From Candidatus Baltobacteraceae bacterium (GTDB taxonomy: Bacteria; Vulcanimicrobiota; Vulcanimicrobiia; Vulcanimicrobiales; Vulcanimicrobiaceae), in NCBI GenBank assembly GCA_036489885.1, contig DASXEW010000001.1:558001-622000 (forward strand): DNA of 64,000 nt. Reading direction: 5' to 3'. The notes under the pieces were generated by a model. It searched no databases, was not told where the DNA came from, and saw nothing but the letters and a program-made list of their open reading frames with translations. Made by a program: the position numbers and the translations under genes. This document shows, one piece after another, positions 28,308-48,660 of the stretch. Numbering within the stretch: position 1 is the stretch's first letter; each line of letters starts with the position of its first letter.

Positions 28308-30022
28308 AACAGTGCATACCGCTGGGCTAGAGGAAGCTCGCGTGCGGGCTCGCATAGCAGCAGCTCGCCGTCGGCTCGTACCTCGTAGGTCCTCGGGTCG
28401 ACTTCGATACGGGGCGTCGCCGAGTTGCGGATCATGTCGCGCTTACCGATCGAGCGCGTGTTACGCACGGCAACCAGACGCCGTCCCGTTGCATGCCGCT
28501 CGGAAATGCCGGCGGCGAGCGATGCATTTGAGACGAAGCTAACCGCAATCGACTGTGGCATCCGCCCATACGTGCCCCACATCGGACGCATGCGAACGGG
28601 TTCTGGGGTTGGGATCGAAGCATTCGCGTCTCCCATCGCCGCCCACGCGATCGCGCCGCCTTTGATGACCAGCTCGGGACGCACGCCAAAGAACGCAGGC
28701 TTCCAGAGCACGAGGTCCGCAAGCTTGCCGACTTCGATCGAACCGACTTCGTGCGCTACTCCGTGCGTGATCGCGGGATTGATCGTGTATTTTGCTATAT
28801 ATCGCTTGACGCGCTCATTGTCGTTCTTGGCAGTATCGCCGGGCAAGGGACCTCGCTGCAGTTTCATTTTGTGCGCGGTTTGCCACGTTCGCATGATCAC
28901 TTCGCCGACGCGACCCATCGCTTGCGAATCTGATGAAAGCATCGAAAGCGCGCCGATGTCGTGCAAGATGTCCTCGGCCATTATCGTCTCGGCGCGGATA
29001 CGTGAATCTGCGAACGCGACGTCTTCGGGGATCCTAGGGTCGAGATGATGGCAGACCATCAGCATGTCGAGGTGCTCGGCGATCGTGTTGATTGTGTACG
29101 GACGTGTAGGATTCGTGGACGAGGGCAGAACATACGCTTCGCCCGCGATTCGGATTATGTCGGGTGCGTGTCCGCCGCCGGCGCCTTCCGTGTGATAGGT
29201 ATGGATCGGGCGGCCGGCGATCGCACGAATCGTTTCCTCGACGAAGCCCATCTCGTTGAGCGTGTCGGTGTGGATCGCAACTTGCACGTCGTATTCGTCG
29301 GCGACGCGCAAGGCGGTGTCGATCGCAGCAGGCGTCGTCCCCCAGTCCTCGTGCAACTTGAGACCCATCGCGCCGGCTTTGACTTGTTCGGCGAGCGGTG
29401 CCGTGTCGGATGCGTTACCTTTCCCGAGAAAGCCGACGTTCACGGCGAGTGAATCGACGGCTTCGAGCATCCGAGCGATGTGCCACGCGCCGGGCGTGCA
29501 GGTCGTCGCGTTCGTTCCCGAAGCAGGCCCGGTTCCGCCCCCGATCATCGTTGTTATCCCGCTTGCGATGGCGACGTCAACCTGCTGCGGACAGATGAAA
29601 TGTATGTGCGCGTCGATTGCCCCGGCAGTGAGCACGTGATTTTCGCCGGCGATCGCTTCAGTTGCCGCGCCGACGATCATCCCCGGCGTGACGCTTTCCA
29701 TCACCCATGGGTTCCCTGACTTTCCGATTCCCGCAATGCGCCCGTCGCGAATACCGACGTCGGCTTTATAAATGCCGCCGATGGCGTCGATGATGGTAAC
29801 GTTCGTGATCACCGTATCGAGAACGCCGTCGCCGTCGCGTGTTGCGGTCGGATGCTGACCCATCGCATCGCGAATCACTTTACCGCCACCGAAAACGGTC
29901 TCGTCGCCATACGTTCCGAGATCGCGCTCGATCTCGACGATGAGATCCGTATCGGCAAGTCGGAGGCGATCGCCTGTTGTCGGTCCGTACAAACGCGCGT
30001 ATGCCGCGCGATCGATCTTCAT
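28304..30022 (-). CDS. ureC: Urease alpha subunit UreC
   Basis: A 572-residue catalytic subunit that hydrolyses urea to ammonia and carbamate. ATG 30022 ([19 protein letters not shown]) is the conserved start. Ni ligands lie in [13 protein letters not shown] and [16 protein letters not shown]. The bridging carbamylated Lys is in [13 protein letters not shown], followed by IHTDTLNE and the flap [19 protein letters not shown]. It is directly preceded by the GC-rich leader hairpin at 30023-30060, which separates it from ureB by 69 bases. Confidence 0.98.
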
Positions 30023-47000: not shown

Positions 47001-47393
47001 ATGGCTTGGAAACTCGGCGAAGTCGGTCATTTCGGGATACGCGTTCGCGATCCGAAGAAAAGCGCGCATTGGTGGGTGCAGAACGTTGGGATGCGCGTAG
47101 CGTTTGAGTTCGATGACGGCGTAGCCATCCAGAGCGATGCGGTCACGATCGTGTTGCACGAAGGCGTTCCGCATCCGGGAACCCTCGGTCACATGTCGTT
47201 CCACCTCAACTCGATGGACGAGCTGCGGGAAGCGCTCGAAGACCTGCGCGGAAAAGGCGTGAAGCTCGAGGATCCGGGTGACGAGATCGGCCCCGAAGCT
47301 CCGGGCTCGCCGCATATGGGTTTGTGGTTCCACGACCCTGACGGTTACCGGTGGGAACTGTCCGTGCAAAACGGCGCGAAGGAAAGACGCTGA
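47001..47393 (+). CDS. VOC-family dioxygenase/glyoxalase-like protein
   Basis: A 130-residue VOC protein: VGHFGIRVRDPKKSAHWWVQNVGM, LGHMSFHLNSMDELREAL and GLWFHDPDGYRWELSV supply two His and one Glu for a metal. Fused ring-cleavage dioxygenases and glyoxalases share this form. ATG 47001 is preferred over GTG 46992. Its stop overlaps the proposed CTG start of ppx. Confidence 0.85.
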   Translation: MAWKLGEVGHFGIRVRDPKKSAHWWVQNVGMRVAFEFDDGVAIQSDAVTIVLHEGVPHPGTLGHMSFHLNSMDELREALEDLRGKGVKLEDPGDEIGPEAPGSPHMGLWFHDPDGYRWELSVQNGAKERR

Positions 47394-48298
47394 GCCTTCA
47401 CGCGATTGTTTCAATCGGAACGAACTCGACGCGTCTTTTGATCGTCCGAGAAAGTGTCGATGGAAGACTCGAACCGATCGTTCATCGTTCGATTGGTACG
47501 CGACTGGGCGCAAACCTCAAGGAGGCCGGACCACTCGATCCCGAGGCGAGGGAGCGGACGCTCAGCGTGATCAACGATTATGCACGCGAGATGCAGAGCT
47601 ACGGCGCGGACGCGAGCGCTATCGCGACGAGTGCGATGCGCCGCGCCTCGGACGGGGAGGGGTTTGCGCGTGAAGTCGAGCGTCGTGTCGGGGCGCGGCT
47701 CGAAATTCTTTCAGGTCCGCGCGAAGCAGAGCTGTCGTTCGTCGGTGCAACGGCGAGTCGAACGCATCACGATCTTGTCGGAGTAATCGACATCGGCGGC
47801 GGAAGCACCGAGTATGCGTCGGGCAAAGCACAGGTCGAAGCGCGCGTGTCGTGCGAGATCGGCGCGGTGCGCCTATCCGAAGCGATTCCTGCGTTGCTCG
47901 GCGCGCAAGTGCCGGGTGACATTCCGGCGCTGGAAGAAGAAGCGCGCAGTTTCGCGCGCGCGCGCCTTGCGCCGCTGACCGACTTCTTGCGCCCGAGCAG
48001 GGTCTTCGCCGTCGGCGGAACGATGTTCAACGCTGCGGCGATCGTGACTGACCGAGATCGCGAGGACATCGACGGCATGGTCCTCACGCGCACAGCGCTA
48101 ACCGAGCTCGCGCACAAGTTTCTTGCCATGGACGCTCCGGTGCGCCGCGTGCAGGCGCGGATCAGTCCGCAGCGCGCCGATATCTTTCCAGCGGGACTCC
48201 TGATCGCCGATGAAGCGCTCGGCATCCTCAGCCTCGCCGAATGCACCGTCTCGCAACGCGATCTTTTGTATGGCTATCTGATCGTGAAGTTTGGCTGA
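47390..48298 (+). CDS. ppx: Ppx/GppA phosphatase family protein, CTG start proposed
   Basis: A 302-residue exopolyphosphatase/guanosine pentaphosphatase of the ASKHA fold. It has SIGTNSTRLLIV (first phosphate loop; Asp replaced by Ser-Ile-Gly-Thr), VIDIGGGSTEY (second loop) and VFAVGGTMFNAAAI. The only canonical start, GTG 47351, lies inside the VOC gene without a ribosome-binding site. CTG 47390 overlaps the previous stop as CTGA, has AAGGA six bases upstream, and puts SLHAIVSIGTNS directly at the N-terminus, as in homologues. It lacks the C-terminal HD domain of long Ppx. Confidence 0.9.
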   Translation: MSLHAIVSIGTNSTRLLIVRESVDGRLEPIVHRSIGTRLGANLKEAGPLDPEARERTLSVINDYAREMQSYGADASAIATSAMRRASDGEGFAREVERRVGARLEILSGPREAELSFVGATASRTHHDLVGVIDIGGGSTEYASGKAQVEARVSCEIGAVRLSEAIPALLGAQVPGDIPALEEEARSFARARLAPLTDFLRPSRVFAVGGTMFNAAAIVTDRDREDIDGMVLTRTALTELAHKFLAMDAPVRRVQARISPQRADIFPAGLLIADEALGILSLAECTVSQRDLLYGYLIVKFG

Positions 48299-48300
48299 TC

Positions 48301-48349
48301 TGTCATCCTGAGCGTAGCGCCCGAAGGGCGCGAAGTCGAAGGACAGCGA
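48301..48349 (+). repeat. Dispersed intergenic repeat, full copy
   Basis: Head TGTCATCCTGAGCGTAGC, a perfect internal hairpin GCGCCC-GAA-GGGCGC, and tail GAAGTCGAAGGACAGCG. Related copies are at 14-34, 436-482 and, as a reduced palindrome, 24270-24303. It starts three bases after the ppx stop and could act as its terminator. Similar sequences are common between genes in many metagenome-derived bacteria; this is recollection, not a search. Confidence 0.65.
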
Positions 48350-48367: not shown

Positions 48368-48660
48368 GGGGTGGTGGCGGAATCGGTAGACGCAGCAGAC
48401 TTTTATGGAGCCAATCGTTCGGAAACGGCGATTGGGATGCGCTCAAATTCGGTGAACTCTTCCGTCGTGCAGACGATGACAACGCCGAGCCAAGCCGTTT
48501 AGACGGAAGGTGTAGAGACTGGACGGGCGCGGCCTACGTGAGAACCTCATATGGTCAAGGCACAGTCCGGACCACAAAACGTGAAGCGGTGGCGAAAGCC
48601 ATAGTGGTAAGAAAATCTGCAGCCCGAAAGGGCGTCCGAGTTCAAGTCTCGGCCACCCCA
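48368..48660 (+). tRNA. tRNA-Leu(UAA) interrupted by a group I intron
   Basis: Exon 1 is 48368-48402 and exon 2 48612-48660. The spliced 84-nt tRNA has acceptor GGGGTGG/CCACCCC, D-arm GCGGAATCGGTAGACGC, anticodon stem GCAGA/TCTGC with loop CTTAAAA (anticodon TAA), a long class II variable arm GCCCGAAAGGGC, and T-arm CCGAG-TTCAAGT-CTCGG. The discriminator base is A; CCA is not encoded. The intron sits between the first and second anticodon bases, the same site as in cyanobacterial and plastid tRNA-Leu(UAA). Confidence 0.95.
48403..48611 (+). ncRNA. Group I self-splicing intron, 209 nt
   Basis: The 5' exon ends in CTT, paired with the intron guide GAG (48408-48410) to give the U·G splice-site pair. 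P2 is 48411-48417 with 48429-48435. The core contains GCCGAGCCAAGCCG (48484-48497) and GGAAGGTGTAGAGACT (48505-48520). P7 can pair GACT (48517-48520) with AGTC (48564-48567). A GAAA-capped TGGC/GCCA hairpin lies near the end, and the intron ends in G (48611). These are IC3-type features known from cyanobacterial tRNA-Leu introns. It is too short to encode a homing endonuclease. Confidence 0.92.

Follow-up and report, generated by a model that had tools for sequence, protein, structure and literature searches.

A group I intron in the tRNA-Leu(UAA) gene of a Candidatus Eremiobacterota bacterium and its same-site relatives in other bacterial phyla

The group I intron that interrupts tRNA-Leu(UAA) in cyanobacteria and plastids is a textbook marker intron. 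The window analysed here, a 64-kb stretch of DNA from a member of the phylum Candidatus Eremiobacterota, carries what a preliminary description took for an intron at the same site, which raises the question of whether such an element is functional in this host and how it came to reside there. When introns were allowed, ARAGORN placed a split tRNA-Leu(UAA) gene at 48368-48660 on the plus strand, the strand of all window features given below. The 5' exon (48368-48402) ends in ...GACTT, the last two bases being U33 and U34, and the 3' exon (48612-48660) starts with AAAATC and does not encode CCA. Removal of the intervening 209 nt (48403-48611), which hold no ORF of their own, leaves a standard 84-nt cloverleaf with the anticodon TAA, and the junction GACTT/AAAAT sets the insertion between U34 and A35, the position of the bacterial tRNA-Leu(UAA) intron of subgroup IC3; the intact tRNA and the insertion after the first anticodon base had thus both been read correctly. 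With introns disallowed, ARAGORN reported no tRNA across the 64-kb window.

The intervening sequence has the anatomy of group I, with a P3-P9 core, U.G at the 5' splice site, a guide and a terminal G. The guide GAG (48408-48410) faces the exon CUU (48400-48402) and, like the terminal G at 48611, is invariant in 16 relatives, so that both elements stand as first described. Beyond the guide lie the P2 hairpin (48411-48435; GAAA loop at 48422-48425) and then, placed by alignment and pair counts, the 5' strand of P3, GCGCTC (48439-48444), with its partner GGGCGC (48525-48530), and the P4-P5 domain (48449-48488), in which 48449-48454 pairs with 48483-48488 to form P4. The P6 hairpin (48495-48506) is followed by the guanosine-binding helix P7, whose 5' strand G-A(bulge)-GACT (48515-48520; placed by alignment, with A48516 bulged) is matched by the 3' strand AGTCC (48564-48568; alignment and pair count), completing the P3/P7 pseudoknot around the P8 hairpin (48531-48556). 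The P9 domain (48571-48608; alignment and pair count) precedes the terminal G. Standard pairs fill 97.0% of cells across this structure in the 16 relatives, and sliding the partners by one to three columns lowers pairing to 28-39%. Moreover, 23 pairs have changed on both sides, spread over P2 (seven pairs), P5, P6 (all five), P8 (all five of its outer part) and P9, and covariation reaches 0.384 against 0.128 after shuffling, none of 500 shuffles being as high. The structure is therefore beyond chance, and the claim of group I membership, with the small tRNA-type plan, is borne out. P3 and P7, 100% paired, are untouched by the covariation evidence because they do not vary in these relatives, an invariance consistent with a catalytic core. 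We infer that the intron is a ribozyme and not protein-only in nature. Its length had been thought close to the minimum; it is indeed small, but ordinary for its type, the lower end of its relatives lying at 202-204 nt among the matches listed.

The comparison with Rfam that had been proposed as a check gave a divided result. In a search of 421 bases, Intron_gpI (RF00028) aligned to 48393-48583 and scored 27.0 bits (E=5.3e-5), but the curated cut-off is 50 bits, and default Rfam scans of the window and of the genome therefore overlook the intron. We treat the low score as a limit of a general model that is weak for subgroup IC3; the intron was therefore classed by its anatomy, and our own covariance model (R1), built from Eremiobacterota introns, was used in place of Rfam. 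Likewise, tRNAscan-SE 2.0 misses group I introns of bacterial tRNAs (fMet, Ile2; PMC8450103). Because default tRNA and Rfam scans miss intron-bearing genes, genomes appear to lack tRNA-Leu(UAA), and routine annotation overlooks these genes. A separate Rfam match in the window, to 5_ureB_sRNA at 29572-29870 (+; 40.6 bits, cut-off 40), is probably due to chance or coding similarity.

To follow the intron through the host phylum we used a sample of 149 species, 99 of which, in 38 genera, belong to the host's family. Model R1 located the Leu intron in two families of one class, in 43 of the 99 species of the host's family and in 7 species of the second (counted by hand from the tables, leaving out introns of tRNA-fMet, tRNA-Tyr and tRNA-Asn, which the model picks up as well). 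An uninterrupted UAA gene is present in 36 species of the host's family, none of whose members holds both forms in one genome. A literature search returned no paper linking group I introns with Eremiobacterota. Directly upstream of the window's tRNA lies a Ppx/GppA-like gene (47351-48298; named by resemblance), and tblastn on the relatives' loci found it at 24 intron-bearing and 16 intronless loci; it is thus one orthologous locus that gains or loses the intron. Distances between introns track those between the upstream genes (r=0.86 within the host's family, n=23) and also those of the unlinked recA (r=0.63, n=22), each correlation exceeding all 5000 permutations, and the introns conflict with the host genes at a single well-supported point. 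Presence and absence, on the other hand, switch 13 times on a tree built from the upstream gene of 40 genomes and are as patchy as shuffled labels; being unclustered on the host tree, they do not let us claim any single loss or gain.

Such patchiness could also be produced by present-day homing of the intron into the intronless tRNA-Leu(UAA) of related species, a process with which the 13 changes, no better than shuffled labels, would agree, as would the HNH genes found in Leu introns elsewhere (Gammaproteobacteria, Bacilli and Chloroflexi). However, no endonuclease is encoded in any of the 30 Leu introns (206-358 nt) that were read from Eremiobacterota, and intron sequences follow the host genes save for the one conflict. 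Loss thus explains the patchiness more simply, and homing is unlikely, although some transfers are possible. One such transfer may have linked the two families, since the second family's introns, four in the tree, form one clade nested inside those of the first, and the intron possibly entered the second family sideways. The simplest reading of these comparisons is that of an old intron, inherited and many times lost. The suggestion of an old intron in a second deep lineage would accordingly keep its first half, the intron tracking host gene trees within the family, and lose its second, this lineage being one of many.

How many became apparent from a pattern combining the core with the Leu 3' exon, which favours non-cyanobacterial introns and matches at least 119 genome contigs. 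Removal of the intron yields a tRNA-Leu(UAA) cloverleaf in at least 104 of these contigs, from eight or more phyla, and the record titles among the matches listed include Alpha-, Beta- and Gammaproteobacteria, Bdellovibrionales (Bdellovibrionota), Acidobacteria (Acidobacteriota), Bacteroidetes (Bacteroidota), Chloroflexi (Chloroflexota), Bacilli and Clostridia (Bacillota), Planctomycetia (Planctomycetota) and Eremiobacterota. Interrupted tRNA-Leu-TAA genes have been described in Beggiatoaceae (Gammaproteobacteria; PMC4853749), and a literature search returned no paper joining tRNALeu, group I introns and Alphaproteobacteria. With these same-tRNA introns in view, the insertion point between U34 and A35 is no cyanobacterial and plastid speciality, as the preliminary description had supposed. 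The Leu(UAA) introns of Proteobacteria, Acidobacteriota, Bacteroidota and other phyla share tRNA and insertion point with those of Eremiobacterota and score 60-160 bits with the Eremiobacterota model; they form lineages of their own, and some contain HNH endonuclease genes. Leu(UAA) introns of about 680-700 nt occur in L171 and L183 (Gammaproteobacteria), L189 and L220 (Bacilli) and L174 (Chloroflexi), with HNH ORFs confirmed in L171, L189 and L174 and recognized by eye in L183; the HNH-bearing ones are this kind of intron in mobile form.

Recent horizontal transfer from cyanobacteria, for which the presence of the intron in this host had seemed to call, would account for the features shared with the well-known cyanobacterial intron, namely the tRNA, the point between U34 and A35, the CUU/GAG pairing of P1 and the small IC3 plan. 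The two differ in the core, which reads GGTGTAGAGACTGGACGGGCGC here and presumably GGTGCAGAGACTCGACGGGAGC in the Anabaena intron. In our tree, moreover, the 30 Eremiobacterota Leu introns make up a single clade (support 1.00) that stands away from all other lineages included, cyanobacteria being represented by a single Anabaena intron which, like the Azoarcus sequence, serves as a label only. The non-Eremiobacterota introns cluster largely by host phylum, the 198 columns not fixing the deep order. On this comparison with one cyanobacterial sequence, and since the intron tree also agrees with the host genes inside the family, recent transfer from cyanobacteria is unsupported and appears highly improbable. 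The accepted history of the cyanobacterial intron, an old origin with several losses (PMC4476775), resembles that proposed here for the Eremiobacterota intron. For the whole intron set, of which the window's gene is one example, we can tentatively envisage, as a possibility that falls somewhat short of probable, that group I introns have resided for a long time, and across bacteria as a whole, between U34 and A35 of tRNA-Leu(UAA), being inherited mostly vertically within phyla and often lost; the cyanobacterial and plastid intron would be one branch of this set, and the intron may predate several phyla. The tRNA-Leu(UAA) intron itself is a type already known, to which this copy is newly added.

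The question of function turns on the remaining tRNA genes of the host. Its genome (3.48 Mb) carries further tRNA-Leu genes with the anticodons TAG, CAA, GAG and CAG, and an intact second tRNA-Leu(UAA), the finding that had been named as speaking against a working intron, was sought with the tRNA model and with the uninterrupted-gene pattern; neither detected one in this 95.9%-complete sequence. UUA codons amount to 2.3 per 1000 and are present in 29 of the 43 long ORFs of the window, and they would be without any tRNA if the gene were left unspliced. Because these searches leave the interrupted gene as the sole UAA gene, its intron must be removed for UUA to be read, and we infer with strong confidence that it is spliced in the cell. 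In the predicted reaction the exon CUU would pair with the intron GAG, a guanosine bound in P7 would attack after U34, and the freed exon would then attack after the terminal G, ligating U34 to A35 to give a normal tRNA. A decayed insertion in a pseudogene, with another tRNA serving UUA, would fit the Rfam score under the cut-off, but it is the least probable explanation of all given the lack of another UAA gene in the genome searches, the intact cloverleaf formed by the exons, the invariant core and the stems preserved by compensation in relatives. Taken together, the locus very probably holds a functional group I intron that is spliced, vertically inherited with the host family and often lost; it would have passed down with the tRNA locus as the family diversified, encoding no endonuclease and disappearing many times.

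A textbook marker intron of cyanobacteria and plastids thus has same-site relatives in many bacterial phyla. In the host group, which comprises dozens of species, the interrupted and the uninterrupted gene share an orthologous locus and the trees agree with those of the host, so that the age and the loss rate of a tRNA intron can be measured there.

Introns of other tRNAs resemble the one described here to different extents. Those of Azoarcus tRNA-Ile(CAU) and alphaproteobacterial tRNA-Arg(CCU) have the same small IC3 plan and a similar core, the Arg introns L186 and L197 scoring 139 and 157 bits with the Eremiobacterota model, but they reside in other tRNAs and their guides fit other anticodon loops. 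The intron of the initiator tRNA-fMet (Synechocystis type) is also found in other Eremiobacterota (L111, L112 and L114-L116; 88-105 bits with the model) and differs in its tRNA, its separate clade and its PD-(D/E)XK endonuclease gene, carried by L115 (PF11645, E=1.4e-29), which is of the type known from Synechocystis. Two genomes placed in the same phylum have group I introns in tRNA-Tyr(GUA) (L117 in G107, 227 nt) and tRNA-Asn(GUU) (L118 in G108, 256 nt), although the contigs are short and a binning error is possible. The genome of the window contains a second group I intron, of 317 nt (85 bits), in the 23S rRNA gene (L050:2142-2458, minus strand, corresponding to C1:1060641-1060957), inserted after U1931 in E. 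coli numbering as judged from the flanks CCTAAGGT and AGCGAAAT.

Mobile replicons provided further instances. In clinical plasmids the aac(3)-IId resistance region includes a tRNA-Leu(UAA) gene that is intact, carries a group I intron and has escaped annotation (L283:5994-6292, from pCTX-M3, NC_004464.2, at about 61.8 kb; also L284 and L285). Matches to the window's gene occur in 1264 plasmid records, and the plasmid gene is present in 635 of 5426 complete E. coli genomes. In the tree the plasmid intron groups with the Hyphomicrobiales introns L165 and L210, which hints at the origin of the plasmid DNA. Intron-bearing tRNA-Leu(UAA) genes were also seen in three contigs of 89-150 kb from a virus collection (L280, L281 and L282); according to a review, the phage group I introns then known were all in protein genes (PMC3984707). 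Finally, positions 48300-48346 of the window, upstream of the tRNA, hold a short palindromic repeat of the type CATCCTGAGC...GAAGTCGAAGGA, and similar repeats are found within outer loops of the introns L073, L074, L124 and L130.
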